Source of the DNA: Bolinopsis microptera
Lineage: Eukaryota; Ctenophora; Tentaculata; Lobata; Bolinopsidae
Length of the DNA stretch: 64,000 nucleotides
Direction: 5' to 3'
Assembly (NCBI RefSeq): GCF_026151205.1
Contig: NC_087077.1
Coordinates: 11,382,983 to 11,446,982, forward strand
A program made the position numbers and the translations under genes. Of the stretch, positions 36,691 to 60,262 are shown piece by piece (within the stretch, counting starts at the first letter, position 1; every line of letters begins with the position of its first letter). The notes below the pieces were generated by a model that did not search any database, was not told where the DNA came from, and saw nothing but the letters and a program-made list of their open reading frames with translations.

Positions 36691-36803
36691 TTGTCATACG
36701 TTGTATGACCCGCCGCGCACGAAGTGCGCGGCTCCCCCTGTAGCGTCGCTACAGGGGGACGCCACTATAGTGAAGCGACCGTGGGGGTCACCACGTGATA
36801 CAA
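36691..36803. mobile_element. 113-bp TIR mini-element made of stacked palindromes
   Basis: The ends are TTGTCATACGTTGTATGACC and, inverted, TTGTATCACGTGGTGACCCC, imperfect terminal repeats. Between them lie hairpins GCGCAC-GAA-GTGCGC, CCCCCTGTAGC-GTC-GCTACAGGGGG and CACTATAGTG. Right after its end is GCGCCGGAG (36804-36812), which also flanks the related end at 60262, so a 9-bp target duplication is inferred; 8-11 bp is typical of Mutator-like elements. Confidence 0.7.
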
Positions 36804-37216
36804 GCGCCGGAGTATATCATCAAATGTATTGACATCAAAAGTCAACCTGTACGTGTACTAAGAACTGAAGAAGACTATTTCCTCCTAAATGTTCCTCCTA
36901 TTTCAAACTATAGTAAAACCGAGAGAAGTTTCAGCTACTGCGGACCCTCTGTTTGGAATAAGCTTCCTTATCAATTGAGAACACTAACCGATATCGTCTT
37001 ATTTAAAAAGAAACTAAAAACTCATCTCTTTGAAAACGTATTTGTATAAGTATCATGTATTACCTTTCTCATAAAATCCATACTTCATAAAAATAAGTTC
37101 TTATGTACATGTTACTCATGAGTCGCTTTAGATGGTTTGAACTGAATCTTTGGGTTTTGAGTTCTTTATGGCTATAAAGCGATGTATAAATTCCTACTTA
37201 TTATTATTATTATTAT
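36804..37216 (+). pseudogene. 3' end of an L2/CR1-type LINE (reverse transcriptase C-terminus and tail)
   Basis: In frame from APEYIIKCIDIKSQPVRVLR to FSYCGPSVWNKLPYQLRTLT and KKKLKTHLFENVFV, the standard C-terminus of L2/CR1-group LINE proteins, stop at 37047-37049. The 3' tail ends AAAGCGATGTATAAATTCC and a (TTA)n run, as in that group. The fragment begins exactly where the LINE at 60263-61648 stops, and both share GCGCCGGAG. Confidence 0.85.
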
Positions 37217-37329
37217 ATCAACTGCCCTTATTATTATTCAATGAAACAAGAAATTTTCAATGAAACAAGAAATTTAATTTTAGCACATTTTACAGAATAA
37301 AAGATGTAAAACAATTCATAAAATATAAT
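37217..37329. repeat. Short flank with an element X match
   Basis: On the minus strand the bases next to the LINE tail read ATAAGGGCAGTTGATAT, the same word as element X at about 62774-62791. The match is only about 20 bases. The rest is AT-rich with a direct repeat TCAATGAAACAAGAAATTT. Confidence 0.5.
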
Positions 37330-38297
37330 GCCCATTTGGTGTATGACTTTTTGTCCTTGACTGCTAGTTTGGTTTTGGAAGGACAGGTAACTAACGGGGC
37401 AAGGAATGCGCGTGCCTGAAAGCTTTTGCACACACCGAAACGCTAGTTCAGTTAGGTTTTTAGAGACAGGGCTCATTTTAGGACTAGAAGAAATTTGTTA
37501 GTAGACATTAGGGGTTCTGTTTATAGATGTTACTATAGGTTGCAGTCTTGTTGTGACAAAAAGTCTACATTAAAACATGCTTTAGATTATATTGTGTGGT
37601 TCAAGGATATAAAATGTGGCTTCAAGGTGTATATTAAAGAGCTTGCGAAAGATTATGGCCTTTGTATCAATGGTTATAATAAGCTATAAATATCTTAAAC
37701 TATACAGTGCTAATTAAAAATTTCTTTATACTTCATTCTCAGATTAGATTTAAGAATTCAAAAAATATACATTTATTTTATTAATACCTTCTCACACATT
37801 CTTTACTCACAGGACAAGACTTGGAAAACAGTAGCCTAGAGGAATTTAATTGAGATGTGTGTGAACAGCCAGTTATAATGTTTGGAAAATAATATTTGTG
37901 CAGTCAAAATCTTTCACGGTCCAATCAAGCAGGGCGTGGTTATGCTGATTGGCTAATAGCGCACTTTTAAGTTTTCCTCGCAAGCACATTACACTAGTAG
38001 TAAAGTCAGTCATTCTGAACTTTGGGGTTAAAATGTTAAAAATTTTGGTTGACCTAGTGTTGTGGTTGTCAGGTGGGTCTACCTGACAGATAAGAAGGCA
38101 GGGTTTCCTCGACGAACATGTGTAACCCTCATATAGGGATATTGGAGCACGGAATTTCATTATCTTGTAGAGCTCGAGGTAACTGTGGTATGTATAGAGA
38201 TTTTGTATAGCTAGAATATTATTATGCTTGAATATCGGTTTGGTGTGTTCTTTTATGAAAAATTTTTGGTCAAGTTTCTGGTGTCCTATAGGCCTAG
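37330..38297 (-). pseudogene. LINE remnant: C-terminal part of a reverse transcriptase protein plus 3' region
   Basis: The minus-strand frame from 38296 to 37873 reads KLDQKFFIKEHTKPIFKHNN, ILAIQNLYTYHSYLELYKIM, FRAPISLYEGYTCSSRKPCL and NTRSTKIFNI, a pattern seen at the C-terminus of many invertebrate LINE proteins. It is cut at 38298 by the end of a small TIR element. The non-coding part (GGGGCAAGGAATG, AACGCTAGT) resembles 45417-45475 and 48759-48820, and the coding part resembles 55195-55390. Confidence 0.6.
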
Positions 38298-38420
38298 TTG
38301 TATCACGTGGTGACCCCCACGGTCGCTTCACTATAGTGGGTGTCATCCGAATTGCGAGATTCACGAGAAATCTCAGGTGCAACTGGACGAGAAGAACTCG
38401 CGTGCGCGGGGCAGTAGACT
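38298..38420. mobile_element. End of another copy of the small TIR element
   Basis: TTGTATCACGTGGTGACCCC, then CACGGTCGCTTCACTATAGTGG, is the exact inverse of the right end of the 113-bp element (36764-36803). Beyond about 38340 the sequence differs and the other end was not found; the right limit given is arbitrary. Confidence 0.6.
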
Positions 38421-39030
38421 CAGTACTAAATTGTTACCGCGTGTACGGGAGAGTCATCTCAGAAGGTTCTAGACTATTTGATTTTGAAGTTACATGTTAA
38501 ATTCTTTGATGACGTGATCGTTGACTGGAAAGCTAAACCCTTACTTTTTACAATTTTCTAACTAGCAACACTTTCTCCTTCTTATTCTTATTTTAGTATG
38601 AACACTGAAGTCTCGGTAGATTGATTATTTTTGAAATGTCGATACTTGGATAAGACGAGAAAGCATCTTTCAAATTAAATAAGTTAATCCGGCATTTTAA
38701 TCAGAAAAAATATTCCAAATTCAATCAGTAAAGCCAGAATTTTAGTCACGATATTTACGATTTACAAAACTCACCTCATATAACTCAAAATTGTATTATT
38801 GGTATCCTTATATTAATGTATAACACAACTAAAATTCATCTGCAATATAAATTAACATAGATCAGTGCTTCAAAGAAAAAAGATTGATATCAGACGGTTT
38901 CCGGTTCAGCAGCCAAATCTCTGGACTGGTCTCCGGTACTCGCTTACTACTACTAGTCATTTGTGACAATACATAAAGTGTGGTATGTGTTAGATATTTA
39001 TACGAGGGTCTTTGATAAAAAACAGAGGCA
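38421..39030. other. Unassigned AT-rich DNA
   Basis: No gene or repeat recognised. Confidence 0.4.
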
Positions 39031-39384
39031 AACCGAGGAATTGTCCTCCTGACCAAGGCCGAGGAAAAATCGCTATTCCTCGGTAAAACAGAGGCCAAGG
39101 TCGACCCTTGTATTTACATAGCATACTCTAGAGTCTAGATCTATAAAACGAAGTAAGAGTTACCACGTTACTCTTTTATCTCTCCGTTAAGCCTACAACT
39201 CCGCTAACTAACAATTGAGTATGAGGTCAATTAATTAATGTCCACAGGTGTGGATTATAGAAATTACATTCAAACATAATTGAACAGCATGAGACAAGCG
39301 GAGAACAAACAAACGAATAGATTTCAAGCTCATAACGGATCGTTGCTTGATATTGGAGATTTCAAAACCTTAGTCCGACAGTCT

Positions 39385-39535
39385 AAGTTCTCTTGTCGAA
39401 CTTAAGTGAGTGTCGAACTTGAGTCCAGATACAAGATAGAGCACTTTGGTTCGAGTTCGACAGAGTCGAATCTTAGGGTTTGTCGAACTACAGTATAAGT
39501 GACGAACTACAGTGCGTGTCGAACTTGAGTACGTG
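39385..39535. repeat. Cluster of GTCGAACT words
   Basis: GTCGAACT(T/A) or its near form occurs about six times in 150 bases, plus the inverse AGTTCGAC once. The same cluster recurs at 42035-42185. Spacing is irregular, so it is not a simple tandem repeat. Confidence 0.6.
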
Positions 39536-39953
39536 TACCTAATTTACCATGGTTAAAACATCTTCAAACCGTAAAATGTGCAAAAAAAACTACATTTAAA
39601 GGATCCTCCAACATTGTCTACAGCGGGCAATATCCTTTATTTCATAATCACTCAATTCTTCGGAAGTATTCATAACCAAATTACGATCTTTAACATCGTC
39701 CATCAATAATTTAAGGGAACTTTTGCCGAAACAACCTATACGCCCTTTTAATTTTGACAGGGCAGCTCAGAAGTAAATGGTTCTTTAAGACAAAACATAG
39801 ATAAATCTAATCCCTTTAAAATATGCGGCTCAGTTACTGGCACGTTCTTACCAAGACAATTTAAATATACCATCTAGCTTATTCATAGAACACATTTCGG
39901 AATACTTAGTGGTCTTAACATTCACCCTAGGCAGAACATCTGGGTGATCATGA

Positions 39954-40216
39954 CTATTGTTGAGAATTTTTGAATCTGAGAATTGACCATTTTCGTCGGG
40001 AATACTTAAAATTGTCTTTCTCTGCTGGAGGTTGAGGTTCTGCTGTATGTTGAGGATCTGTTGAGGATGGGGATACTTTTATGAAGTAGGGATTAGGAAA
40101 CGAGCTGCGGAGCAATATCTGTTCATCCAGCTCGGCCTTCTTCTTGTTAAGGTTAATCAAATTGGTCCTCTGACTGTCTTTTTTGGCTCTATCTTTGGAT
40201 TTCTTCAGTCTCCTGA
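39954..40216 (-). pseudogene. bZIP-like exon (first copy)
   Basis: On the minus strand an acceptor TATATTTCAG (about 40217) opens a frame of 86 residues to TAG at 39954: RLKKSKDRAKKDSQRTNLIN followed by LNKKKAELDEQILLRSSFP and a proline-rich tail with EPQPPAEKD. The basic stretch followed by leucine-type heptads resembles the end of a C/EBP-like bZIP domain, which binds DNA as a dimer. No upstream exon with the rest of the basic region was found in phase, so this may be a dead or retro-derived fragment. Identification is tentative. Confidence 0.3.
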
Positions 40217-40754
40217 AATATATTATGTCACATTAGATTATTCATGATACGTAAAGATTTGTTTAAGCATACCCAAAAGGATTTATTTTATATTAATAGC
40301 TCATTAATATAATCCAGCATTGGATCTATTTGAAAAGTAACTTAAAACAACATGCAGAGCGACCAATATCGACTGAATCAATGCTTGGTAGCACAAACCG
40401 GAGGTTAGAAATGAATACTTGACCACATGGTCACTTGCAACATATATCACATACCTTGGTTTTACATTTCCTTTTCAATAACTAAATCAGAGTGACCTCC
40501 AATCTCCATAGATGATCAAACGCATGGCCCAACATATAATCGACGAGAATTTTCAAATGATTTTCGGCATTTCAATTCTTGCAGCGGTTGCTGAGTTTCT
40601 GAAAAATAAATCATTATAAAACATTATTGGGATTTAATATTGTCTGAAATATTCGAATTTTCGAATGTTGACGACAGACTTCTCGAATGAATAGTTATAA
40701 ATATTAAACACGTGTGTAACGGGACTTTTGGCCCCCTCTATTATTCCTAGTATA

Positions 40755-40990
40755 TCTATAATATTAGAGCTATTCTGGTGTATCTGAACAACATTAGAGC
40801 TACTAAAGTCTGGTGTATCGTAACAATATAAATACTAGTGAAGTATGGTGTATATTAACAATATAAGAACTAGTGACGTCTACGTCTGGTATAACTCCAC
40901 AATTATAATAGTAGAGCTAATAAAGTCTGGTGTATCTGAACAATATTAGAGCTAGTAAAATGTGGTGTATCTGGTGTATATTATAGAATA
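40755..40990. repeat. Degenerate minisatellite of about 40-45 bp
   Basis: Variants of AGAGCTA-TAAAGTCTGGTGTATCTGAACAATATT recur five to six times. The same block occurs at 43405-43640 and 46753-46988. Confidence 0.75.
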
Positions 40991-41654
40991 GCCATTCTTT
41001 ATTAGTTAATATAAATTAATTATGAAACTCTAATACCCTGTGGTTAACGTTTTTCAGTTTCAGCCCTTTCGACTTAGTAATTCCTGATAACTAAAAACTA
41101 CTTTTATCCGTGTTTTAAGCTATTCCAATCATTTTGAGCCTATAAAAAGTTTTTAAATTTTTGCTCATTAGCTTATTGCTTATTATCCAATTAACTGATT
41201 ATCTTACGTAAAATTGTCTTCCTGATTATATGAACACCCTCGATAAATCTGCAACCTTTAACGATGTTCACAACTAAAGTTATTTGACAAACAAGAAAAG
41301 CGGTTAAGTGGCAAAAAGTGGCCTTATATATATACAAGGTGGCCTTAATAGCTCAATCACTGAGTGCCCAATTGAAATAATTCTTTCTGGTATGACTTAC
41401 TACCACCACTAGTTCGAGGAATTTGTCAAATCGATAAATATTAGAGTTCATTTTTTTCAAATGAAGGTTCATTTTTGCATTAATTTGATATAGTTTTTAT
41501 ATAATAGTTTTGATAGTCGAATCGAGCTAAATTTTATTGAATTGTGTTTGGCCATTCGAATTACGTTTGTCCTGAAAAAATTAGAACTGTAACTTCTTAG
41601 ATGACAGAGATATGAAGCATAACGAGTTTATTCATTACGTGTGATCAGGAGATT

Positions 41655-41684
41655 GGTTTACCTAATCACGTGATTAGGTAAACC
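41655..41684. repeat. Perfect 30-bp palindrome at the A/B junction
   Basis: GGTTTACCTAATCAC followed directly by its reverse complement GTGATTAGGTAAACC. It spans the join between the two tandem units. At the end of unit B (44305-44333) the right half reads GTGATTAGGTGACC, so the symmetry is perfect only at the duplication junction. Confidence 0.9.
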
Positions 41685-44600
41685 GAGGAATTGTCCTCCT
41701 GACCAAGGCCGAGGAAAAATCGCTATTCCTCGGTAAAACAGAGGCCAAGGTCGACCCTTGTATTTACATAGCATACTCTAGAGTCTAGATCTATAAAACG
41801 AAGTAAGAGTTACCACGTTACTCTTTTATCTCTCCGTTAAGCCTACAACTCCGCTAACTAACAATTGAGTATGAGGTCAATTAATTAATGTCCACAGGTG
41901 TGGATTATAGAAATTACATTCAAACATAATTGAACAGCATGAGACAAGCGGAGAACAAACAAACGAATAGATTTCAAGCTCATAACGGATCGTTGCTTGA
42001 TATTGGAGATTTCAAAACCTTAGTCCGACAGTCTAAGTTCTCTTGTCGAACTTAAGTGAGTGTCGAACTTGAGTCCAGATACAAGATAGAGCACTTTGGT
42101 TCGAGTTCGACAGAGTCGAATCTTAGGGTTTGTCGAACTACAGTATAAGTGACGAACTACAGTGCGTGTCGAACTTGAGTACGTGTACCTAATTTACCAT
42201 GGTTAAAACATCTTCAAACCGTAAAATGTGCAAAAAAAACTACATTTAAAGGATCCTCCAACATTGTCTACAGCGGGCAATATCCTTTATTTCATAATCA
42301 CTCAATTCTTCGGAAGTATTCATAACCAAATTACGATCTTTAACATCGTCCATCAATAATTTAAGGGAACTTTTGCCGAAACAACCTATACGCCCTTTTA
42401 ATTTTGACAGGGCAGCTCAGAAGTAAATGGTTCTTTAAGACAAAACATAGATAAATCTAATCCCTTTAAAATATGCGGCTCAGTTACTGGCACGTTCTTA
42501 CCAAGACAATTTAAATATACCATCTAGCTTATTCATAGAACACATTTCGGAATACTTAGTGGTCTTAACATTCACCCTAGGCAGAACATCTGGGTGATCA
42601 TGACTATTGTTGAGAATTTTTGAATCTGAGAATTGACCATTTTCGTCGGGAATACTTAAAATTGTCTTTCTCTGCTGGAGGTTGAGGTTCTGCTGTATGT
42701 TGAGGATCTGTTGAGGATGGGGATACTTTTATGAAGTAGGGTCTAGGAAACGAGCTGCGGAGCAATATCTGTTCATCCAGCTCGGCCTTCTTCTTGTTAA
42801 GGTTAATCAAATTGGTCCTCTGACTGTCTTTTTTGGCTCTATCTTTGGATTTCTTCAGTCTCCTGAAATATATTATGTCACATTAGATTATTCATGATAC
42901 GTAAAGATTTGTTTAAGCATACCCAAAAGGATTTATTTTATATTAATAGCTCATTAATATAATCCAGCATTGGATCTATTTGAAAAGTAACTTAAAACAA
43001 CATGCAGAGCGACCAATATCGACTGAATCAATGCTTGGTAGCACAAACCGGAGGTTAGAAATGAATACTTGACCACATGGTCACTTGCAACATATATCAC
43101 ATACCTTGGTTTTACATTTCCTTTTCAATAACTAAATCAGAGTGACCTCCAATCTCCATAGATGATCAAACGCATGGCCCAACATATAATCGAAGAGAAT
43201 TTTCAAATGATTTTCGGCATTTCAATTCTTGCAGCGGTTGCTGAGTTTCTGAAAAATAAATCATTATAAAACATTATTGGGATTTAATATTGTCTGAAAT
43301 ATTCGAATTTTCGAATGTTGACGACAGACTTCTCGAATGAATAGTTATAAATATTAAACACGTGTGTAACGGGACTTTTGGCCCCCTCTATTATTCCTAG
43401 TATATCTATAATATTAGAGCTATTCTGGTGTATCTGAACAACATTAGAGCTACTAAAGTCTGGTGTATCGTAACAATATAAATACTAGTGAAGTATGGTG
43501 TATATTAACAATATAAGAACTAGTGACGTCTACGTCTGGTATAACTCCACAATTATAATAGTAGAGCTAATAAAGTCTGGTGTATCTGAACAATATTAGA
43601 GCTAGTAAAATGTGGTGTATCTGGTGTATATTATAGAATAGCCATTCTTTATTAGTTAATATAAATTAATTATGAAACTCTAATACCCTGTGGTTAACGT
43701 TTTTCAGTTTCAGCCCTTTCGACTTAGTAATTCCTGATAACTAAAAACTACTTTTATCCGTGTTTTAAGCTATTCCAATCATTTTGAGCCTATAAAAAGT
43801 TTTTAAATTTTTGCTCATTAGCTTATTGCTTATTATCCAATTAACTGATTATCTTACGTAAAATTGTCTTCCTGATTATATGAACACCCTCGATAAATCT
43901 GCAACCTTTAACGATGTTCACAACTAAAGTTATTTGACAAACAAGAAAAGCGGTTAAGTGGCAAAAAGTGGCCTTATATATATACAGGGTGGCCTTAATA
44001 GCTCAATCACTGAGTGCCCAATTGAAATAATTCTTTCTGGTATGACTTACTACCACCACTAGTTCGAGGAATTTGTCAAATCGATAAATATTAGAGTTCA
44101 TTTTTTTCAAATGAAGGTTCATTTTTGCATTAATTTGATATAGTTTTTATATAATAGTTTTGATAGTCGAATCGAGCTAAATTTTATTGAATTGTGTTTG
44201 GCCATTCGAATTACGTTTGTCCTGAAAAAATTAGAACTGTAACTTCTTAGATGACAGAGATATGAAGCATAACGAGTTTATTCATTACGTGTGATCAGGA
44301 GATTGGTTTACCTAATCACGTGATTAGGTGACCCCGTTAACCACCCCGTTAAACATTATGGGAATTGTTAAGGGTGCCCAATTAAGGTGTCGTGTCACGG
44401 TGTCACATAATCACCCAGTCAATATTGTTAACAAGATACAGAAAATGCTTGATAACTTGGTCATTTCTAATCCGTTTTGCCTCATGTTTTCGGATCATAT
44501 GCAACATTTAATAATCTACCGTCTCTGAAAAAATAGGCGTTCAGCATGTTCAGAGAAAACAATATAGGTGTTTTAATATTGAATGGGCGTGGTCTAAAAT

Positions 44601-46482
44601 ATTCGAATTTTCAAATTTTGACGACGAAATCCTCGAACCAGTAAGTACAGTATGCCATCTGCAAAGCAACAGCTCTAAAATATAAAACACAGCGGAGCTA
44701 TTAAGGCCAACGTATGCCCACTGACTTTTGGCCCACCCTATATATTAAGACACAAATCTTTTGTAAGCTTTGTGTGTCGGCAGATCGATTTTATCAGACG
44801 GATCTGTCTGTACAACTCGACAATTCACGCAAATCTCGAAGTTCCGGTGATGCACACTCAAATTTTGGCAGAAATGCTGAAGCAAGTGTGGTTTACATAA
44901 AACTCTTAGACACATTTTGGTCTATAATTCGGTGTGTCTCTAATATGATTATTTGCCAATTAATTGTGGGCTGTGGCGTGATCAGAGCCGCGCACACGTG
45001 CGAATATACTATCAATGGAAATTGGAATGTACAAATGTGTATGGTGCTGTGCGAAGCAAATTAGAAGGTGTAGCCGCTGTAATCTATAAAAATATTATAA
45101 GCTATGATTCCGTTTTATTACAGGATCTGGCATCTGCCGTAAATATCCACTGATTTTATCTGTGACACACACTATAACTATGCAATGTTACCTGTTTCTC
45201 TAATAAACTGCCTCTAACAAGGTACACGGCCTTAGGGACTGCGAGTACCTCCTCTAACGGAATTAAATAATTAAAGTAGAAAGTGATCGATGGAGCGGTT
45301 TTTTAGAAGTACAGGAGAGTAAACAGCATAAATGTAAACAAATGAAAACATATAATGCTCTTAGTAGTAAATGGCCATTTGTTCTGAGCTGTATGGTTTT
45401 TTGACAATCAACTAGCGGGGCAAGGAATTACTGGCTGGTAGCTTTTGTACACACCAGAACGCTAGTCTGGTTGATAGGAAGGCATTATAATTGTGGCCGT
45501 AGAAGAGGACTATTTGGCATTTATATTTTACAGGCTAGCTCTAGAATTAAATTAGGAATTAGAATCAAATACACAGATACAATAATCGATAAAAATAATT
45601 AAGAAGGCTTCATTGCTGGCAGCATTAAGCATCGAAGAAATTTAGCAGAACACCTTCTAGGACATAAGCTTATTTTGTAAAATGCTTACATTATTAAGAC
45701 GGAAGTATTTGGGTGTTAAATCAGCTAAATGTCTTATGGCCGGGTTAAATTAGGGAGAAAAAAGATGTTGGGTTATAATTAATCTAAATTGTTTTTTGAA
45801 AATTTTAAATTATAATTTGGACACATTTATCAGTACGTTATTAATCTCAAAAAAAAAAGTATTTTCAAGCTTGAGGTTTTCTATGATTTGGGTGTATAGT
45901 GTTTTGATTGCTATTTATTGGGTGATGGGAGTGGAGATGATGGGAGTGCCAGCCAACTGTCATATGAACAGCCCACTGTGAGGATGGGTGAGTCGCAGCG
46001 CTTAGAACGGTAGGGGTGGCATAAAACGGAACACGGCCACGGACAAAACACGAAACTAAACCTGCGCGTAGCTCGGCCGTGTCTGAAGCTATGTTCCAGA
46101 GGTTATCCAAAAGGTGCCTCGTGGAACTGTCTAGGCTACATTCGAATTGCAAGGTCCGAAGCAAATAAACTGATGATTAAGAGGTATGACATGAACGGAA
46201 AGTGAAGAAAAAAGGATTAAAAAGGATCCACTGAGTATAGGCATGTCAGGAAGTGATGAAAAGCTCACAGACAATAATCTATTCGTGAAATGTTACCCGT
46301 AGTAGACAGGTCATTTCAGGGCATCCAGGATACACTGAACATGCAAGCTGTTACGACCAGGTCCACGCGATACCCGCCTCGGAGGTTGAGAAATGCCCTG
46401 ACTTCGACCACTTATGGTCTACTGTGGACCTTCATATTATCCTACTTAGAGTACTGTAACATTCACTCAGGCCTCACATACT
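41681..46482. repeat. Tandem duplication, unit B
   Basis: 41681-44330 is nearly identical to unit A. The segment 43135-46482 is repeated again at 46483 onward with an offset of 3,348. From about 44940 the two copies differ by many single-base insertions and deletions. Its end (about 45830-46480) resembles the stretch just upstream of and into the first ORF of the LINE at 49849. Confidence 0.9.
42604..42866 (-). pseudogene. bZIP-like exon (second copy)
   Basis: The duplicate of 39954-40216 with one visible residue change (SFPNPYF to SFPRPYF). The same acceptor TATATTTCAG and stop are retained. See the first copy for the reasoning; tentative. Confidence 0.3.
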
Positions 46483-49400
46483 AATCAGAGTGACCTCCAA
46501 TCTCCATAGATGATCAAACGCATGGCCCAACATATAATCGAAGAGAATTTTCAAATGATTTTCGGCATTTCAATTCTTGCAGCGGTTGCTGAGTTTCTGA
46601 AAAATAAATCATTATAAAACATTATTGGGATTTAATATTGTCTGAAATATTCGAATTTTCGTATGTTGACGACAGACTTCTCGAATGAATAGTTATAAAT
46701 ATTAAACACGTGTGTAACGGGACTTTTGGCCCCCTCTATTATTCCTAGTATATCTATAATATTAGAGCTATTCTGGTGTATCTGAACAACATTAGAGCTA
46801 CTAAAGTCTGCTGTATAGTAACAATATAAATACTAGTGAAGTATGGTGTATATTAACAATATAAGAACTAGTGACGTCTACGTCTGGTATAACTCCACAA
46901 TTATAATAGTAGAGCTAATAAAGTCTGGTGTATCTGAACAATATTAGAGCTAGTAAAATGTGGTGTATCTGGTGTATATTATAGAATAGCCATTCTTTAT
47001 TAGTTAATATAAATTAATTATGAAACTCTAATACCCTGTGGTTAACGTTTTTCAGTTTCAGCCCTTTCGACTTAGTAATTCCTGATAACTAAAAACTACT
47101 TTTATCCGTGTTTTAAGCTATTCCAATCATTTTGAGCCTATAAAAAGTTTTTAAATTTTTGCTCATTAGCTTATTGCTTATTATCCAATTAACTGATTAT
47201 CTTACGTAAAATTGTCTTCCTGATTATATGAACACCCTCGATAAATCTGCAACCTTTAACGATGTTCACAACTAAAGTTATTTGACAAACAAGAAAAGCG
47301 GTTAAGTGGCAAAAAGTGGCCTTATATATATACAGGGTGGCCTTAATAGCTCAATCACTGAGTGCCCAATTGAAATAATTCTTTCTGGTATGACTTACTA
47401 CCACCACTAGTTCGAGGAATTTGTCAAATCGATAAATATTAGAGTTCATTTTTTTCAAATGAAGGTTCATTTTTGCATTAATTTGATATAGTTTTTATAT
47501 AATAGTTTTGATAGTCGAATCGAGCTAAATTTTATTGAATTGTGTTTGGCCATTCGAATTACGTTTGTCCTGAAAAAATTAGAACTGTAACTTCTTAGAT
47601 GACAGAGATATGAAGCATAACGAGTTTATTCATTACGTGTGATCAGGAGATTGGTTTACCTAATCACGTGATTAGGTGACCCCGTTAACCACCCCGTTAA
47701 ACATTATGGGAATTGTTAAGGGTGCCCAATTAAGGTGTCGTGTCACGGTGTCACATAATCACCCAGTCAATATTGTTAACAAGATACAGAAAATGCTTGA
47801 TAACTTGGTCATTTCTAATCCGTTTTGCCTCATGTTTTCGGATCATATGCAACATTTAATAATCTACCGTCTCTGAAAAAATAGGCGTTCAGCATGTTCA
47901 GAGAAAACAATATAGGTGTTTTAATATTGAATGGGCGTGGTCTAAAATATTCGAATTTTCAAATTTTGACGACGAAATCCTCGAACCAGTAAGTACAGTA
48001 TGCCATCTGCAAAGCAACAGCTCTAAAATATAAAACACAGCGGAGCTATTAAGGCCAACGTATGCCCACTGACTTTTGGCCCACCCTATATATTAAGACA
48101 CAAATCTTTTGTAAGCTTTGTGTGTCGGCAGATCGATTTTATCAGACGGATCTGTCTGTACAACTCGACAATTCACGCAAATCTCGAAGTTCCGGTGATG
48201 CACACTCAAATTTTGGCAGAAATGCTGAAGCAAGTGTGGTTTACATAAAACTCTTAGACACATTTTGGTCTATAATTCGGTGTGTCTCTAATATGATATT
48301 TGCCAATTAATTGTGGGCTGTGGCGTGATCAGAGCCGCGCACACGTGCGAATATATCTATCAATGGAAATTGGAATGTACAAATGTGTATGGTGTGTGCG
48401 AAGCAAATTTAGAAGTGTAGCCGCTGTAATCTATAAAAAATATTATAAGCTATGATTCCGTTTTATTACAGGATCTGGCATCTGCCGTAAATATCACTGA
48501 TTTTATCTGTGACACACACTATAAACTATGCAATGTTACCTGTTTCTCTAATAAACTGCTCTAACAAGTACACGGCTAGGGACTGCGAGTACTCCTCTAA
48601 CGGAATTAAATAATTAAAGTAGAAAGTGATCGATGGAGCGGTTTTTTAGAAGTACAGGAGAGTAAACAGCATAAAATGTAAACAAATGAAAACATATAAT
48701 GCTCTTAGTAGTAAATGGCCATTTGTTCTGAGCTGTATGGTTTTTTGACAATCAACTAGCGGGGCAAGGAATGTACTGGCTGGTAGCTTTTGTACACACC
48801 AGAACGCTAGTCTGGTTGATAGGAAGGCATTATAATTTGTGGGTGTAAGAGGGAATATTTGGCATGTACTATTCTAGCAGCTATTAGAATTAGAATTAGA
48901 ATTAGAATCAAATTTACACAGCAATACAATAAGAATAAAAAATAATTTAAGAAGCTTCAATCTGCTGTGCAGGACATTCAAGTCAGTCGAAAACTGTTAG
49001 CAGAACACCCTTCTAGGGACATAAGCTATTTTGTAACAAATGGTCTTTACAATTATTAAGGACGGTAAGTATTTTGGGTGTTAAATCATGGCTAAATGTC
49101 TTAAGTGGGGGCCGGGGGTTTAAATTTAGGGGAGAAAAAAATGAATGTTGGGTTATAATATTAATCATAGAACATTTTTTTTTTTGAACATTTAAAATAT
49201 AATTTGGAACATTACAGTAACGTTATTCAAATCTCAAACAAAAAAAGTATATTTCAAAGCTTTGTGTTTTGATCATATGATTATGGGTGTATAGTGATTT
49301 TGATTGCATAAATTTGATTGGGCAGTGATGGTGAGTGAGAAGATGATGGGAGTGCCAGCCAGTAACTCTGTCAAATGAACAGCCCACTGAGGAGTGGGTG

Positions 49401-49848
49401 AGCGCAGGCGCGAGAACGGCAGAGAGGGTGGCATAAAACGGAATACACGGCCACAGAAAAGACACAGAAACTAAACCGTGCGCGGTAAGTTAGCCAGTGT
49501 CTGAGAGCTAGTGTTCCCCGGCAGGAGGCATCCAAAAGAGGTGCCGTGGTGAACTGTCGAGGCTAAGTTCGAATGCAAGGCGAAGCAACTCAAACTGATG
49601 ATGAAGAGGTAGACTGAACGGGAAGTGAAGAAAAAGGAAAAGGAAGGATCCAGCTGAGGTCTGGCTCATGTCAGGAAGTGATGAAAAGCTCACAGACAAA
49701 ATCATCCGTGGCTGTCTACCCCGTACGTAGGCAGTGTCCGAGATTTCAGGCATCAGGATACACTGAAACAGTGCAGAGCTGATTACGACCAGGGTCCTCG
49801 CGGATACCCCGCCTCGGAGGTCGAGCCAATGCCCTGCTTTCGATACTT
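46483..49848. repeat. Duplication unit C, running into the LINE
   Basis: Starts AATCAGAGTGACCTCCAATC like 43135 and follows unit B with offset 3,348, then slightly more as indels accumulate. It leads without a break into the first ORF of the LINE. Short open frames within (47676-47876, 48062-48310) repeat those in unit B and have no family signature. Confidence 0.85.
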
Positions 49849-51243
49849 ATGTCTACTGGTGGAACCTTCATATTTTCTCTACTAGCAGTCACTGTAACCC
49901 TATCACTCGGAAGGCCCCACAGCTCCTACATGGACGCACGGCCGGGAGCCCATGTAGGGATAAAAGTGAACGCAAGCCTTCCATCACATCCGTCACAGAT
50001 TCAAAGCTGGGAGGAAAAATGGGAGCTGGAGGAGAGGAAAAAAGAAAAAAGAATACAAAAAAAGAAAACAAAAATGGAAAGGTCTAATGTGTCAATCAGC
50101 TCTATTCTTACCGAAATAAAAACCGAGATTAAAGAGCTAAAACTCACGATAACTGAGATGACCCCTGCAACCAAATCAACCGGGAGCTGCCAGGTAGCAA
50201 CAAAATGCTCAAGTGGCGCAGATCTACTGAAAAATCTGTCAAAAGCTACCCAAGACACCAGCATGCTCCTGGAGAAATCTGAAATAGGTCTGAAAGGGCT
50301 CACACAAACCCTCAAAGATACTATGTCTGTAAAGAAAGATCTGGAAGTTTGGAGTCAGAGTGTCTTCAAAAGGGAAGAAAATGAAAAAATCAATGAAATC
50401 CATGAAATCATCTCTGCCTCAAATTTCAGAAACAACCAGGCAGACCCAGCTCCAAATGTTAGCCAAAGCTATGTGAGACATATCCCCAGGTCACCAGCTG
50501 ACACACGGACTAACAGTGACATCCCCGGGCTGTCACCTAATCAGGGACGGTCTTCCTACAGGAGAGAAGACCTAGAACCCAGACAAAAAGGCAAGATAAT
50601 CACAAAAGAAAGTGCAACAACTCCTCGCAGCACAGGGAGATCCAAAAGAGCGAGTAACCCAGTACAGCGCCAACAGAAAATTGTTCTCCTCTGTGACTCG
50701 ACCATGCGAAGCTTTAAACCTGACGAGTTTCCAAAGAGGTACAATGTCTCTGTAATATACAGGCCAAGTTTGAAAGAACTTGACTCGTGCCTCGAACGAA
50801 CAGTAGAAGAGATTTCAAACCTCAATCCAGATGCAGTGTACATTCACCTTGGTACTCGGGACATCCTGGAAGGCAACAAGGCTGATATTGTGGTGGGATC
50901 ATTAATCAAGTCTACTGAAAAGATCCTTAGACAGACCTCACAACACTGCCAAATATTCATCTCTCACCCCTTTCTGCGCGACCATCCTGGAGAGGAATGG
51001 GGTAAAAATAGTCGACTCATCACAGAGGCAATCAGAAATCTTAAAGATGACAGTGAAAAGGCTGATTTCTGGATGAGATCAAGAGAAAACAGAAACAACA
51101 ATTTCTACCCGGGGGGATCGGATATCCCACACGACTATCTGTTTGTCCCAGATCAACCTCATCTAAATGACAGAGGTATCAGAGTAATCATGGGAAACTT
51201 CAAGACAAGTCTCAATAGTACATTTAGCAGGGACCGTACTTGA
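49849..51243 (+). CDS. LINE ORF1 protein with coiled coil and SGNH-esterase-like domain
   Basis: 464 residues. A hydrophobic stretch lies near residues 5-21 (FIFSLLAVTVTLSLG), so the natural start may be a later Met. A lysine/glutamate-rich coiled coil follows (about 54-105, WEEKWELEERKKEKRIQKKK), then a polar linker. Residues about 275-455 look like an SGNH/GDSL esterase fold: VLLCDSTMRSF (block I, serine), VYIHLGTRDIL (block III-like) and DQPHLNDRG (block V, Asp and His). Such esterase domains are known in ORF1 proteins of CR1 and related LINEs, where they are thought to aid nucleoprotein formation or membrane association. The protein would bind the element RNA. The first 20 or so codons lie in the duplicated 5' region, whose other copy is frame-broken. 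Confidence 0.85.
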   Translation: MSTGGTFIFSLLAVTVTLSLGRPHSSYMDARPGAHVGIKVNASLPSHPSQIQSWEEKWELEERKKEKRIQKKKTKMERSNVSISSILTEIKTEIKELKLTITEMTPATKSTGSCQVATKCSSGADLLKNLSKATQDTSMLLEKSEIGLKGLTQTLKDTMSVKKDLEVWSQSVFKREENEKINEIHEIISASNFRNNQADPAPNVSQSYVRHIPRSPADTRTNSDIPGLSPNQGRSSYRREDLEPRQKGKIITKESATTPRSTGRSKRASNPVQRQQKIVLLCDSTMRSFKPDEFPKRYNVSVIYRPSLKELDSCLERTVEEISNLNPDAVYIHLGTRDILEGNKADIVVGSLIKSTEKILRQTSQHCQIFISHPFLRDHPGEEWGKNSRLITEAIRNLKDDSEKADFWMRSRENRNNNFYPGGSDIPHDYLFVPDQPHLNDRGIRVIMGNFKTSLNSTFSRDRT

Positions 51244-51338
51244 ATTCTAGTCTCTCATTCTCAGCTCCTCCAAGTCTTCCGAGTTCTCTTCTTCTTTCCT
51301 CCTCTCCTCTTGCCTCTCTCATCTTCTATACCTGACTG
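51244..51338 (+). promoter_or_regulatory. Pyrimidine-rich inter-ORF leader
   Basis: Ninety-five bases between the two LINE frames are almost pure C and T with few purines (TCTTCTTTCCTCCTCTCCTC). ORF2 is in a different frame from ORF1, so its translation needs reinitiation or internal entry; the tract could take part. Inference only. Confidence 0.4.
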
Positions 51339-54300
51339 ATGAACATCGTCAACGGTATAATTTCCTGGAATGTTGCAAACATTCATGGCTTGCTCGGAAA
51401 CAAAGTTGAGGATCCCGAATTTGTCAAAATCATCAGTCCAAATGATATAATCTGCCTCCAAGAAACCGGATGCGAAGTTTCCCTGAAAGGATACAAATCC
51501 TATAGTGACATCCGCAAATCAGGTAAAGGAGGAGGAGTAACCACTTTGGTTAGGAACACAATTGTGGAATATTGCTCTCTGGATAAATGCACACTCACTG
51601 CGGACCATACAATGAATATTGTCATTGTTAAAATCACTGATCCCGACAGCAATCTCAACAACTTTGTTGTCAATAGCTACATCCCACCTACAAATAGCAA
51701 ACAGAAAAACCGCACTAACTGCTCCGAGGCAAACTTTGATGCCCTTCAGGAAAAAATAGCCAGCATCAAGAATAACCCCAGTGATGAGCTATTACTTCTT
51801 GGTGACCTTAATGCCAGGATAGGAGTAGCTCCAGATTTTCATATGTATGACAGAGCGGACGAATTCGAGCTCTTTCCAGAAACTGGCAGGTCTTCCGACT
51901 TCATGGTTATACCTGACGTGGCACCTATATCTCAAAATAGGAACAGCCAGGACAAAATTACCAATAGACACAAAAACCTTTTGCTTGACCTCTGTGGATC
52001 GCAAAACCTCCTGATCCTTAATGGACGTACCATCGGTGACTCTGCTGGAAAATACACATGCTACAAGTGGAACGGAAACAGCGTAGTGGACTACTTCATT
52101 GCATCAACATCCTTTCTTCACCGTGTCAAGAGCCTCTCAGTGGGTGAGCACACTCTGTTCTCCGATCACAATCCAATCTTACTCAGCCTTTGGCATAGAC
52201 GAAGGGCCCCTCAAAGGAATAGTCAAGCTCCCACTAGTATCTACGAGGAAGCTCCCTTTCGATACAAGATCACAGAAGAGGGTTTAGCCAACTTCACAAA
52301 ATCATTTGAACAGCCTGAGTTCATTCAAAGAATCTCCCAACTGACCAAAGATGTCGAATCCACTCCAAAAACCCATGAGGCAGTTGAAGCACTGAATAGG
52401 CAGATTACAGAACTCATAAACGATGTCGCTAAAAAAGAGTTCGATATCTCTAAACAAACTAAGAATCCAAAGCCTAAGTTCGCCTCATGGTTTGACGGCA
52501 AGTGTCACACTGCACGACGCCTTTTCAAACGGTCAATAAAAATTGTCGACAATAATCCTGATAACCAGAGAATCAAAACACGGCATCGTGCCAACTCTAA
52601 AGGATATCGAAAGATTGTCAATAAGAAAAGGGATGACTTCTTCAATAGTCTTAACAAGAAGATTAAAAACGGTAAAACTATATCCTGGAGAGATTTCAAG
52701 AAGCTTAAGAACTACAAGAAGGAAGAAGTCCAAACTGAAACGGAGCAACTCAACTCTTTCCATCAGTTCTACTCTGAGCTATATTCTGACAATCATCCAA
52801 CCGTAGACACTCTCACTAAAAGAGCTCTCCTCGAAGAAGCCAACGCCCTATCCGAGGGATCTGCCCCTAATGAGTCACTGAACAGCCCATTTACATCGGA
52901 TGAGCTGAACGCTGCGCTAGGCGAACTCAAATCGGGCAAAGCATCTTCTTTTGACCACATCAGCAACGAAATGCTCCGGGGTCTGAGCATGAATATGAAG
53001 TCGCTCCTCCTCAAACTCTTCAATTTGTGCCTGGAGACAGGAGTCTACCTCTGGAGCAAAAGTGTGATCACACCAATTCACAAAAAAGGGTGCATCAGGA
53101 ACCCTGACAACTATAGAGCAATAGCAGTCTGTAGCTGTATCGGAAAACTGCTCTCTACGATGCTGCTATCTCGGCTCGTTAATCACCGCCAAATCTCACA
53201 TCCTGATCCACCCAACCAAGCAGGCTTTACCAAAGGAAGCCAATGCAATGACCATATATTTACGCTGATGTCCACCATAGAAAAATACAAAAAAGTCAAA
53301 AGTAAAATATATGCAGTGTTCATTGATCTTCGCAAAGCTTTCGATCTAGTCTGCAGACAAGCTCTCATGTTCAAACTAGCCTGCTATGGTGTCAATGGTG
53401 GCTACTACGACATCATCAAAGACATGTACAGCAAATCAGAGGGTCATATCAAGATGAATGGTAAAATAAGTGAAGCATTCAAGATCCTTAAAGGAACTGA
53501 ACAAGGACACCCACTTAGCCCTGAGTTTTTCAAAGTTTACTTTAAAAAGCTTTCTGACCTCCTTAACGAAGCTACTGCGAACTGTCCGACACTCGCTGGA
53601 CTTTCAGTGACTCACCTAGCGTGGGCTGATGATCTAGTAATCCTCGGCCTAGATCCTGAGTCTCTCCAAAAGTTGCTTACGATTATTGGGGACTACTGTA
53701 ACGAATGGGGTCTGGAAATCAATATCTCCAAAACCAAATTCATGGTCTTCAATGGCAAAGGACCAGACATTCCAAATTGGCGTCCTTCCATTCACGAAAG
53801 AGATATCGAGATGGTCTCCAGCTACTGCTATCTTGGGATTATTATAAGCAGCACAGGGAAATTTCGGCAAGCAACTGACTCTCTATACCGTAAAGGACTT
53901 GGAGCTTACTTCAGCTTGAGAAGCACTATAGACCGGAGATTTGTTGATGCATCCTGCCTTAACAAATTATTTAACACCCTTGTTAAGCCAATTCTACTTT
54001 ACGGCTGTCAAGTTTGGGCCCCGGTTCTACCCACCGTCAATAAGGTCCTCTCTAGCTTCAGCAAGTTTCACAATCTTGATCATGCGGTCTCTCACATCGC
54101 TAAACAGCAACTTGAGCAAGTGCATCTACGACACCTAAAATACCTTCTTGGTATAAACAGAAGGGCAGTCAATGCTACAGCCTGGGGAGAAACTGGCTCA
54201 TACCCAATCATTATTGAAATGTTGAAACTGAGTACTAAATATTTCAAAAGAGTTATGAGCCTCCCCTCTACACAACTAGTCAAAGCTGCAATGACTGAGC

Positions 54301-54965
54301 AGATTAACCTCAAATTGTCATGGTTTGTAGGCATCGAATCAATCATCAAATCATTCAACAACATCGACCTTCTTGAAAGGAATTCATCGTCGCTGTTGAA
54401 CGCAACCTCACTCGCAGACTCCTGCAGCCCTGATTTAATCACAGAGAACCTGAAAAAACAGTTCCGCGATTCCTGGGGTTCTCTTGTGAAAGATTCTAGA
54501 AAGCTATCATTCTACAGTGAAGTCAAAACAGAATTTGTATGGGAGCCATATCTAACCTATGCTAGGTCTTTTCAGGACAGAAGGGCAACCACACAGATTC
54601 GGTCCAGTTCGCATCACCTTAGAATTGAAAGGGGGAGATATGACCAAACTCCAATTGATGAAAGGACCTGCAACTATTGCGAGCTTAACAACAACCAGCT
54701 ATTCATCGAGGACGAGAATCATATGCTCCATTTCTGCCCCCTAGGGAAGGGTCCTAGGGACAATTTTCAAAATCTCAGTGGAAACCTACTCAACAATGTT
54801 GGTAATGGTAGCTTCAATCTTGCCTCCACGTTCATGTCGCAGTCTGATTGCAAGGATACTACCAGTGATGAGGACGTAAGTTTGATCAAACTCTCAACCA
54901 GCACCATTAACAAGATCTACAGACTAACCCTCAACTTCAAAGACAGTCTGAAAGCAGATAATTAG
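51339..54965 (+). CDS. LINE ORF2: endonuclease-reverse transcriptase
   Basis: 1208 residues, uninterrupted. The N-terminal endonuclease/exonuclease/phosphatase domain shows IISWNVANIHG, IICLQETG (catalytic Glu), LLLGDLNARIG, VVDYFIAS and SDHNPILLSL (Asp-His). The reverse transcriptase follows with TPIHKKG, DNYRAIAV, AVFIDLRKAFD (motif A, near residue 662), GTEQGHPLSPEFF (motif B; Glu-Gln-Gly-His replaces the usual Arg/Lys-Gln-Gly-Cys) and LAWADDLVIL (catalytic Asp-Asp near 762). The C-terminus has RIERGRY, then CNYCELNN and HMLHFCP, a Cys-Cys-His-Cys knuckle. The enzyme nicks the target and copies element RNA there. LINE clade not resolved (CR1/Jockey/I-like range). Confidence 0.96.
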   Translation: MNIVNGIISWNVANIHGLLGNKVEDPEFVKIISPNDIICLQETGCEVSLKGYKSYSDIRKSGKGGGVTTLVRNTIVEYCSLDKCTLTADHTMNIVIVKITDPDSNLNNFVVNSYIPPTNSKQKNRTNCSEANFDALQEKIASIKNNPSDELLLLGDLNARIGVAPDFHMYDRADEFELFPETGRSSDFMVIPDVAPISQNRNSQDKITNRHKNLLLDLCGSQNLLILNGRTIGDSAGKYTCYKWNGNSVVDYFIASTSFLHRVKSLSVGEHTLFSDHNPILLSLWHRRRAPQRNSQAPTSIYEEAPFRYKITEEGLANFTKSFEQPEFIQRISQLTKDVESTPKTHEAVEALNRQITELINDVAKKEFDISKQTKNPKPKFASWFDGKCHTARRLFKRSIKIVDNNPDNQRIKTRHRANSKGYRKIVNKKRDDFFNSLNKKIKNGKTISWRDFKKLKNYKKEEVQTETEQLNSFHQFYSELYSDNHPTVDTLTKRALLEEANALSEGSAPNESLNSPFTSDELNAALGELKSGKASSFDHISNEMLRGLSMNMKSLLLKLFNLCLETGVYLWSKSVITPIHKKGCIRNPDNYRAIAVCSCIGKLLSTMLLSRLVNHRQISHPDPPNQAGFTKGSQCNDHIFTLMSTIEKYKKVKSKIYAVFIDLRKAFDLVCRQALMFKLACYGVNGGYYDIIKDMYSKSEGHIKMNGKISEAFKILKGTEQGHPLSPEFFKVYFKKLSDLLNEATANCPTLAGLSVTHLAWADDLVILGLDPESLQKLLTIIGDYCNEWGLEINISKTKFMVFNGKGPDIPNWRPSIHERDIEMVSSYCYLGIIISSTGKFRQATDSLYRKGLGAYFSLRSTIDRRFVDASCLNKLFNTLVKPILLYGCQVWAPVLPTVNKVLSSFSKFHNLDHAVSHIAKQQLEQVHLRHLKYLLGINRRAVNATAWGETGSYPIIIEMLKLSTKYFKRVMSLPSTQLVKAAMTEQINLKLSWFVGIESIIKSFNNIDLLERNSSSLLNATSLADSCSPDLITENLKKQFRDSWGSLVKDSRKLSFYSEVKTEFVWEPYLTYARSFQDRRATTQIRSSSHHLRIERGRYDQTPIDERTCNYCELNNNQLFIEDENHMLHFCPLGKGPRDNFQNLSGNLLNNVGNGSFNLASTFMSQSDCKDTTSDEDVSLIKLSTSTINKIYRLTLNFKDSLKADN

Positions 54966-55194
54966 TTTCCTTTCTCAGTTTTCAACCCTGATATAACTAT
55001 TGTACTAAAAATTTGATCATAATGCTTAGGGTCTTTATTAGAATTCAAATTGGATACAAAAATAGGATCTCTTTACACTACACTTACTCACTCACACATC
55101 ACATTCAACTGGAATACGCTTAGCTGGCAGAGTAAGTCGATTTGGTCATGAAATTTTGGAGGTCAGGTGGAATCCCTACAGGAGCCTACGAAAT
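54966..55194 (+). other. Probable 3' untranslated region of the intact LINE
   Basis: AT-rich with no open frame. The end of the element could not be placed. Confidence 0.4.
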
Positions 55195-56165: not shown

Positions 56166-56199
56166 GTATTTGTCTTTAAACATCTAATAAAAGGTAAAA

Positions 56200-57141: not shown

Positions 57142-57195
57142 CAACGGGTTTGACAGTTACTGGATATAACGGTCATATTACTGCCCCCCTATTAG

Positions 57196-57272
57196 TTTAG
57201 TGAATTAGTTAATTAGTTAATTATTTAATTAGTTAATTAGTTAATTAGTTAATTAGTTAATTAGTTATTAGT
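57196..57272. repeat. (TTAATTAG)n microsatellite
   Basis: About nine near-perfect 8-bp units directly downstream of the LINE fragment, the form of a 3' tail repeat. Confidence 0.9.
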
Positions 57273-57509
57273 GATATGGTTATTATTACGTACTATATAT
57301 TATATGATATTACAAAAATAAACTATGATATGTATATAATACTTGTACACAAAAAAGCCAGAACAAACTGGGCACAGACTAGCGGCAACTAATAATAATA
57401 TTAATGGATGAGCCACACATCCTAAATTCCAGGTTCATATTTACACTGCCACATTCCCCACTATCATTATTCTCCTATCAGCACAAGCCCTAATTGATTT
57501 TAATTGCTC

Positions 57510-57660
57510 GGACAAGTACACGGCTAGGGACTGCGAGTCTATCAGCTACTGCATATCAATAAGGAGTACTCCTCTAACGGAATTAAATAATTAAAGTAGA
57601 AAGTGATCGATGGAGCGGATTTTTAGAAGAACAGGAAAGTAAAAACTCAACGTTTGCATC
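57510..57660. repeat. Fragment shared with duplication units B and C
   Basis: ACAAGTACACGGCTAGGGAC, ...CTCCTCTAACGGAATTAAAT and AGTGATCGATGGAGCGG match 48563-48645 and 45218-45300, with a 35-base insertion (TCTATCAGCTACTGCATATC...) in this copy. Confidence 0.85.
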
Positions 57661-57678
57661 GTGAGACTATAGTGATAA

Positions 57679-57985
57679 AGGCACAGATCAGCTGGATGCT
57701 GGAGAACAGAACCATCAAGTGATCAAGAGATACCGGAACCAGAACCACGATATGGGTTGAGGAACAGAGCAAGTTTGCGACCTTCGGACTATTACAGTGA
57801 TAACCATCATCTACAATTAGACGGGTGACTGATTAACAATCACAAGCAATATTTTAGTAATGCCAGATAATCTGGCACGGTTTCAGCACAGTTCACCTAT
57901 CAATTATTGTTGGCATAGTTCTAGCCAAACTGCTAGATTACATCAGTATATGAGTCAGGATGTTTATCAGTAGTATTTGTCTGTG
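57679..57985 (+). pseudogene. 3' end of the LTR-type retroelement (second copy)
   Basis: Near-identical to 55845-56165 in the same orientation but lacking an internal 30-40 bases. Together the two copies bracket the LINE fragment at 56200-57272. Confidence 0.4.
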
Positions 57986-57988
57986 CGA

Positions 57989-58015
57989 GGGGGGGGGGGG
58001 GGGGGGGGGGGGGGG
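57989..58015. repeat. 27-base poly-G run
   Basis: Unbroken run of G, following GTATTTGTCTGTGCGA. Confidence 0.95.
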
Positions 58016-58900
58016 TCATGAAACTTGATTCTGACAGCAGTTGACCGACAAACTAGGACAAATCTGATATATTATATAGATCCGATCAACTCAAGCAGGA
58101 CTGGTACATTGTCTGATTGGAAAATCTTTGTGGCCGTGTAACTTGACTTGTTCTGATATGTTGACTTGTGTGGGCATGATAGTATCATTCCGAACCCATT
58201 ATATGATGCATAATAGGACCTCATAATAAAATTAAACCCTACAAAATCGATATATTTAAAATTAATTCTCACCTCTTATTCAAAGATCAACTGATGTATC
58301 GGTCCATATCCCAAGATATGACTTTTTCTCTGTTCGTCAACTGCAAAGTGGGCGTAATGTGTTAAGGGTTAGAAGAATTGTTATCATAAACTTAATATTG
58401 TAATCATGGTATTCACCAGGCAAACCATGTACAGTAACACCACGATTTACTGCTCAGTTTGCAGTTTGAGGGAAAGACAACTTGTGCGATTAATCGTGGT
58501 GTATGATAAATCAGGGTTTTGATGTGGTTCACAAGCACTCAAGTTAGGGGTAAGTAGGGAAGCAGTTAGATATTATGAGAATATTAGAATTTAGAATAAG
58601 TCCATAACTCACCTTCGGGTTTCATCCTTCATGAATGCACAAATAGGTTCCCAGAGAGGTATTATACGTGTTGACCGTTATGGAGCTTCAGCAGAAAAGT
58701 ATAAGGTCGAACAAAAATCCAGTATTATCTTTGACTTCAACACATCTAATAGAGAAATCAGATTCTGGTAAGTATAAAATAAAATAGCAATAAATATAAT
58801 CCTTCGTGGACGGTAGTTGTTTCAAATATAAAAGCAAAATCTCTAGAGTCGATTAATTTATTAATATAATAGTCACGTCAACAGTGTTGACTTGACACTA
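58016..58900. other. Unassigned intergenic DNA
   Basis: No gene or clear repeat family was recognised. One 66-codon minus-strand frame (58272-58072) has no signature. Confidence 0.4.
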
Positions 58901-58904
58901 TAAT

Positions 58905-58940
58905 AATTTTATTTGGAACAGAAGTTCCAAATAAAATTGG
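58905..58940. repeat. Perfect hairpin, 15-bp stem
   Basis: AATTTTATTTGGAAC, loop AGAA, GTTCCAAATAAAATT. The right arm, but not the left, recurs in the third tandem unit at about 59605. Confidence 0.85.
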
Positions 58941-59800
58941 GGCGAAAGAGTCGGAAACTTGACAAATAAGACCAATTCGTTTATAGAGGAGTGTAAGTGT
59001 AAAACAACAGCTTACACTGCAGCCAGTAAAGATGAGGACAAATAACTGAAGTACAGACATAGTGGACACTGGACGACATGCCCATATTTGGATTAATCGT
59101 TAATTGTACGGGTAGATGACAGCAAAACTAAGTGTAAACAAAAAATATTACATAGAGTTATATTTATAGTAATAGAGTTACAGGTCCAGTCGGAACGGTG
59201 CCTTTAAATTAATTGCTGAAATCACGAACGTATGTTCTACTTAAGGCTGTCTCCATGATGGTAACCAGAGTTTAAAATGCGGGAGAAGTTTAAGACAAAT
59301 AAGGGGTGTATAGAGGAGTGTAAGTGTAATACAACAGCTGACACTGCACTCTGCAGCCAGTAAAGATGAGGACAAAATAACTGAAGTACAGACATAGTGG
59401 ACATTGTACGGGTAGATGACAGCAAAACCAAGTGTAAACAAAAAATATTTCATAGAGTTACATTTATAGTAATAAAAACAGGTCCAGTCGGAACGGTGCC
59501 TTTAAATTAATTCCTGAAATCACGAACGTATGTTCTACTTAAGGCTGTCTCCAGGATATGGTAACCAGAGTTTAAAATGCGGGAGAAGTTTTAAGAAGAA
59601 CGAAGTTCCAAATAAAATTGGGGCGAAAGAGTCGGAAACTTGACAAATAAGACCAATTCGTTTATAGAGGAGTGTAAGTGTAATACAACAGCTTACACTG
59701 CAGCCAGTAAAGATGAGGACAAAATAACTGAAGTACAGACATAGTGGACACTGGACGACATGCCCATATTTGGATTAATCGTTAATTGTACGGGTAGAAG
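58920..59800. repeat. Tandem repeat of about 340 bp, two and a half copies
   Basis: GAGGAGTGTAAGTGTAA marks units at about 58986, 59312 and 59667. Units share CAGCCAGTAAAGATGAGGAC, GTCCAGTCGGAACGGTGCC and GTTTAAAATGCGGGAGAAGT, with internal deletions in the second. Open frames in it are short and differ by frameshifts. Confidence 0.85.
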
Positions 59801-60191
59801 TTATTGAATGAAATGATGAAGAGGGTCACGAGTTACGACGCAAAACTTAATGACAACTGACAAGGCAGACACATAATGGTCATCACACATGAGTGCAGAC
59901 GAATTAACTGTTATTGTTAACTTAAAAAGCAATGTGACATTCATTCCGTTTACACCGCAAGCATTTTAAAATAGATCTTTATGTGGCCAAATAATTTCAT
60001 ATCTTAAAAGCTTAGCAACACTACACAAATAAAATAGACCTATAAATGGCCACATACTTTCATAGTTAAAAAGGTTATAGCAACCCTCCGCAAACAATTC
60101 ATATTAGCAGCACACAAATATTCAGTACAATCACGTATGGCGCGGCGCTTTATTATGGAGGGAACTGACTGAGTTCCCTTTTGGTTTGTTA
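59801..60191. other. Intergenic DNA with an 80-85 bp diverged duplication
   Basis: AGATCTTTATGTGGCCAAAT...TTAGCAACACTACACAAA (about 59971-60029) is echoed by AGACCTATAAATGGCCACAT...TATAGCAACCCTCCGCAAA (60036-60103). No gene. Confidence 0.5.
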
Positions 60192-60262
60192 TTGTTTGCA
60201 AAACGGCTATGACCCCCTGTAGCGTCTTCGACGCTACAGGCGGGTCATACAACGTATGACAA
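60192..60262 (-). mobile_element. Copy or end of the small TIR element next to the split LINE
   Basis: Read on the minus strand from 60262 it starts TTGTCATACGTTGTATGACC and is identical to 36691-36714 for 24 bases, then has the hairpin CCTGTAGCGTC-GAA-GACGCTACAGG. The other limit (TTGTTTGC at 60192) is only a guess from its resemblance to the family ends. Confidence 0.6.

Follow-up and report, generated by a model that had tools for sequence, protein, structure and literature searches.

Reversed-ends, or alternative, transposition is already known and has been documented mainly with the Ac/Ds elements of plants (maize). According to PMC8225341, inversions of this origin are recognised by matching duplications at the two breakpoints, by loss of the DNA between the two elements and by the position of one element inside and the other just outside the inversion; recombination creates no duplication of its own, and the pre-existing ones end up exchanged. 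Cases involving Drosophila P elements, impala in Fusarium and Sleeping Beauty in mice are also cited there (PMC8225341). As stated in PMC2775673, deletions or duplications come in addition when aberrant transposition involves separate sites, and exchanged duplications are the outcome of ectopic recombination. Here, we describe a 64,000 bp window of the genome of the ctenophore Bolinopsis microptera (C6:11382983-11446982; gap-free, containing no N bases) in which a long interspersed nuclear element (LINE) is split into two oppositely oriented halves next to two DNA transposons of one family, a 113-bp miniature inverted-repeat transposable element (MITE) and a 22-kb relative that we call BIG. 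The sequence favors, with a probability of about 0.75, a single reversed-ends transposition as the source of both the inversion and an accompanying loss of host DNA. It is also likely that this was a natural and recent event in a ctenophore in which one of the reacting ends came from the MITE and the other from BIG.

The closest described counterparts are the maize Ac/fAc p1-p2 inversions, which, as described in PMC8225341, share with the window a pair of same-family elements, the use of facing ends, matching breakpoint duplications, loss of the inter-element DNA and the placement of one element within the inversion and the other immediately beyond it. They differ in that the window pairs a 22-kb element with a MITE of 113 bp, both from an unclassified family, in a ctenophore, carries a 9-bp repeat and has a parental state that is reconstructed instead of observed. 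When Drosophila P elements undergo hybrid element insertion, a process cited in PMC2775673 and PMC8225341, the ends of two copies likewise act together and rearrange the flanking DNA, which can give an inversion with a deletion. There, however, the copies lie on sister or homologous chromosomes, and such a route and a same-chromatid route are not separable by sequence here. The Galileo inversions of Drosophila buzzatii are similar in being natural inversions whose two breakpoints carry inverted copies of a single DNA transposon family, but in the account given in PMC2775673 they show two exchanged duplication pairs and no loss, whereas the window has a single matching pair and has lost DNA. 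Among the papers listed by our literature searches there was no natural reversed-ends case for ctenophores or other non-bilaterians, and a search on ctenophore transposable elements, inversion and target site duplication returned no paper.

The LINE provides the evidence for the inversion. Its 5' part, encoding the reverse transcriptase (RVT_1 in two frames), occupies 60263-61655 on the minus strand outside the inversion, and its reading frame reaches ...NNIAPE and then enters element sequence. The 3' part lies at 36804-37214 on the plus strand, inside the inverted segment. The 9-bp word GCGCCGGAG is present at 36804-36812 (plus strand) and, inverted relative to this copy, at 60263-60271 (minus strand), and a 24-bp stretch at 36691-36714 recurs in inverted orientation at 60262-60239; neither has a further copy in the window. 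Genomic copies were taken from one assembly (264.65 Mb, 232 contigs, 13 of chromosome size). Among 40 places scored out of 195 candidates for the LINE tail, the window's own included, 13 other places scored equal to the window's own tail and ten of these were fetched. All ten copies are continuous through GCGCCGGAG and carry it once. The 3' part is 99.5-100% identical to these copies while the 5' part is 100% identical to four of them over 609 bp. Once head and tail are joined and one 9-mer is removed, the same number, four out of ten, match over 1000 bases with 0 mismatches. Three further copies show 2 mismatches and the others 4, 9 and 170 ungapped mismatches, the last value (L072) likely reflecting a shift by an indel given a 369-bp gapped head match of 99.7%. 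Because the fetched copies are continuous at this site and the joined 1000 bases match four of them perfectly, the alignments identify the two parts as halves of one recent LINE that are now oppositely oriented, and the inversion is strongly supported as a real feature of the assembled sequence. The same perfect matches indicate that the event is probably young, and individuals may still differ in it. Two given 9-mers would agree by chance with a probability of about 4e-6.

An earlier sequence-only reading of this stretch had proposed the split LINE with its NNIAPE end and plus-strand continuation at 36804, the 24-bp inverted pair, the presence of GCGCCGGAG at both points and the inversion itself, and all of these are confirmed in the assembled sequence. 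It had also named two observations that would speak against an inversion. A natural LINE end at APE is rejected by the ten fetched copies, all of which run on through the site, and a repeatedly used insertion site is rejected by the exact joint of GCGCCGGAG followed directly by TTGTCATACG, which occurs once genome-wide.

The elements at the breakpoints, whose left and right ends are termed Lt and Rt, belong to a family with the ends TTGTCATACG.../...GTGATACAA. The MITE occupies 36691-36803 on the plus strand, with its Lt end at 36691 and its Rt end at 36803. It is present in full length at 39 other places among 40 scored out of 1386 candidates. Exact 8-bp target duplications flank 25 of 30 fetched loci, the window copy being among the five misses, and a 9-bp duplication is found at none of the 29 others; loci L026, L027, L030 and L031 have a common flanking repeat and hence are not independent. 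In the window, the MITE is flanked by TACTCCCA on the left, which has no second copy, and by GCGCCGGAG on the right, and it possesses no target duplication of its own. The sequence-only reading had placed an end of this small element at each breakpoint, which is correct at the MITE itself but not at 60262, which represents the Lt end of BIG (38298-60262, minus strand). Only the outer 24 bp of BIG (60239-60262, minus strand) are identical to the MITE (36691-36714), and the sequence further inward matches the longer family, which removes the proposed second 113-bp copy. The opposite terminus of BIG, its Rt end TTGTATCACGTGG, is located at 38298. For the BIG family, 17 Lt/Rt pairs were assembled, leaving out a 360-bp Lt/Rt pair on C13 and unpaired Rt matches. 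Their ends are spaced 7-14 kb apart in 16 cases and 26 kb in one, with exact duplications of 8 bp in 12, 9 bp in one, 7 bp in one and none in three. Target duplications of 8 bp are a trait of DNA transposons of the hAT, P and KDZ types.

All four joints between element and host coincide exactly with element ends, and the flanks reveal which ends share a duplication. The flanks of the MITE Rt end and the BIG Lt end match at 9/9 positions (GCGCCGGAG, in inverted orientation) while the other three Lt/Rt pairings match at 2/8 each, including MITE Lt against BIG Rt (TACTCCCA against CTAGGCCT; 5/9 in a 9-base frame). MITE Rt and BIG Lt are the ends that face each other in direct orientation once the inversion is undone. 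The perfect 9-bp duplication claimed earlier is present as such, but it is one base longer than the family rule and belongs to the MITE Rt end together with the BIG Lt end.

The host repeats surrounding the elements record a loss of DNA in addition to the inversion. Repeat X is an element with 41-bp inverted ends that hosts the LINE, the ends of which are marked by a 4-bp ATAT repeat within X. The left part of X (36550-36690, plus strand) ends ...CATACTCCCA at the MITE and is 98.6% and 99.3% identical to the genomic copies L006 and L007, respectively. The right part, up to the inverted end (61656-63706, plus strand), is ca. 97% identical to L006-L008 and contains the 41 bp that match the left end of X in inverted orientation. 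L006 and L007 thus each match both parts (ca. 97-99%). In addition, ca. 200 bp of the right part (61805-62003) are not present in L007. In L007, the left part continues with TATGCACTG... (TATGCAC...) for ca. 1.14 kb, followed by the 24-bp word AATAATAATAAGGGCAGTTGATAT. Of this interior, only AATAATAATAAGGGCAGTTGATAT is left in the window. It is located at 37215-37238 on the minus strand between the LINE tail, which it adjoins (37214/37215), and a second repeat, Z, and it exactly matches positions 1494-1517 of L006 and L007. The middle of X (L007 ca. 356-1493) matches the window solely in another X copy at 28-29 kb. This second copy (28292-30973) retains its middle and, in its left and middle portions, is ca. 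90-92% identical to L007. Among 40 scored places of X-left, 24 could be paired with AATAATAATAAGGGCAGTTGATAT on the same strand within 6 kb, and in all of them the distance between the two is at least 1007 bp. The 16 unpaired places comprise nine on contigs outside the listed matches of the word, the window's own X-left and six that lack an exact copy of the word within 6 kb.

Z (37239-38297, minus strand) is a separate repeat with a repeated tail and different 3' flanks in each copy and, on sequence grounds, looks like the 3' part of a second LINE, cut at CTAGGCC with its 5' part missing. Among 40 places scored out of 960 candidates, the window included, six copies were fetched. All six carry GTGCACGTA upstream of CTAGGCC, where the window has the Rt end of BIG, and the 600 bp upstream in the fetched copies have no match in the window. 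The possibility that 37239-38297 represents the missing middle of X was rejected: 37180-38320 has no match to eight X loci and the segment is Z. Judged by these genomic copies, about 1.1 kb of the X middle and the 5' part of Z are lost exactly at the element ends. Simple re-inversion, as proposed by the sequence-only reading, mends the LINE and the passage of X through the LINE to 61656. It leaves X-left meeting BIG and BIG meeting Z with unlike BIG flanks, a fourth join that is unmended, with the X middle and the 5' part of Z missing. It was also expected to bring the LINE tail beside the word at which X is interrupted; the tail already lies there, on the minus strand, and what re-inversion restores instead is the run of X through the LINE.

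From this arrangement we infer a parental order and a single transposase reaction that would have caused inversion and loss together. On the parental chromosome, X-left, ending in TACTCCCA, would have been followed by the MITE (Lt to Rt) and then by the X middle together with the 5' portion of Z. BIG, oriented like the MITE (Lt to Rt), would have interrupted Z at CTAGGCCT, and beyond it would have come the remainder of Z, the remainder of X and the antisense LINE, still uninterrupted. Cleavage by transposase would take place at the Rt end of the MITE and the Lt end of BIG, which would have faced each other, and the DNA between the two elements would be lost. The two free ends, each still attached to its side of the chromosome, would then insert at CTCCGGCGC in the LINE, and their crosswise joining would invert 36804-60262 (23,459 bp), the MITE staying outside, with the staggered cut producing the identical 9 bp in inverted orientation at both breakpoints. 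The window shows a matching breakpoint duplication at element ends, one Lt and one Rt end of different copies and loss of the inter-element DNA. It fits the description of reversed-ends transposition on every testable sequence feature except the length of the duplication.

Several observations weigh against this reconstruction. The shared 9-bp repeat exceeds by one base the family norm of 8 bp seen at 25/30 MITE loci and 12/17 BIG pairs, and exactly 9 bp are found elsewhere in 1/17 BIG pairs and 0/29 other MITE loci. The 3/17 BIG pairs lacking a matching duplication indicate that unlike flanks also arise otherwise in this family. Given the 16/40 unpaired places, some X copies may lack the middle. 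A 24-nt palindromic stretch that is present in the MITE and in 14 relatives compared is missing at the BIG Lt end (60238-60239); short relatives such as L055-L061 match across its absence. In this assembly, neither of two ancestral joints nor a re-inserted circle was recovered by pattern searches (0 hits). In a trial for a second case, the unmatched end at C1:8028799 had no partner nearby among the matches listed (100 of 146, loose pattern), which covered contig C1.

The most serious competitor to reversed-ends transposition is ectopic recombination, in which the MITE would have resided in the LINE with a 9-bp duplication and BIG in X, a crossover would have occurred within the identical Lt ends and the middle of X together with the 5' portion of Z would have been removed in a separate event. 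The Lt ends are indeed identical over 24 bp in inverted orientation, and the outer 24 bp are the same in both elements, so that a crossover there would leave no trace in the form of chimeric copies. This stretch is short for homologous recombination. The 14 BIG relatives compared carry the hairpin of the MITE, so that the original identity was possibly longer. Recombination predicts that both duplication pairs are exchanged, yet only one matches (9/9, the other 2/8), and its simple form leaves no loss, so that a second event ending exactly at the Rt end of BIG is needed. Such deletions or recombination beside these elements may occur, as suggested by the three BIG pairs without matching duplications. 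Overall, we regard recombination with a separate deletion as unlikely, and simple ectopic recombination is rejected as a sufficient cause by the single matching pair. The specific version favored by the sequence-only reading, recombination between inverted copies of the small element, is not supported, as the second copy is a BIG end, the shared stretch is 24 bp, one duplication pair matches and DNA has been lost.

Two further explanations receive very little weight. A misassembly that joined the sequence the wrong way round at short inverted repeats would fit the inverted terminal repeats; an inversion by itself, however, would not delete the X middle or the 5' part of Z, and the window contains no N. 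We consider this origin highly improbable. It is equally hard to credit that two transposase-induced breaks were sealed by end joining in swapped order with no target insertion. This would account for breaks located exactly at element ends, but the presence of the same exact 9 bp at the two breakpoints would then have no explanation unless the LINE already carried the MITE. Footprints are also the usual result when excision is followed by end joining.

BIG is twice as long as an 11-kb copy on C7, to which it can be aligned except for 45785-46482 (0.7 kb) and a nested LINE. The extra length consists of internal repeats, the unaligned 0.7 kb and the nested LINE. The internal duplications fall within 38298-49171, where positions 768-3415 and 2220-4910 of the C7 copy recur at 97-99.5% identity. 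The nested LINE forms a gap in the BIG alignment (49172-54981, plus strand) and contains RVT_1 and endonuclease domains in an uninterrupted 1209-aa frame (51336-54965) whose best species-named match is from Mnemiopsis leidyi (49% over 44% of the frame). A Pfam scan of seven window frames gave no hit in the three belonging to BIG itself outside the nested LINE, leaving BIG without a recognised transposase, and no autonomous copy was found. A copy on C2 was considered as an autonomous member, and its long frames resemble LINE pieces by eye. Elsewhere in the genome, the Rt end of a BIG copy (C101:3304 / 14569) abuts an apparent truncated Lt end with no matching target duplication, possibly representing another rearranged copy.

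LINE, X and Z, each with many genomic copies, serve as built-in rulers of uninterrupted sequence, and because they show that sequence, inversion and loss can be distinguished here without a second individual. Re-inverting a segment because of a single target duplication can point to the wrong mechanism. If the reversed-ends origin is true, tiny MITEs scattered through the genome could act as handles for the single-step rearrangement of large stretches by transposase.

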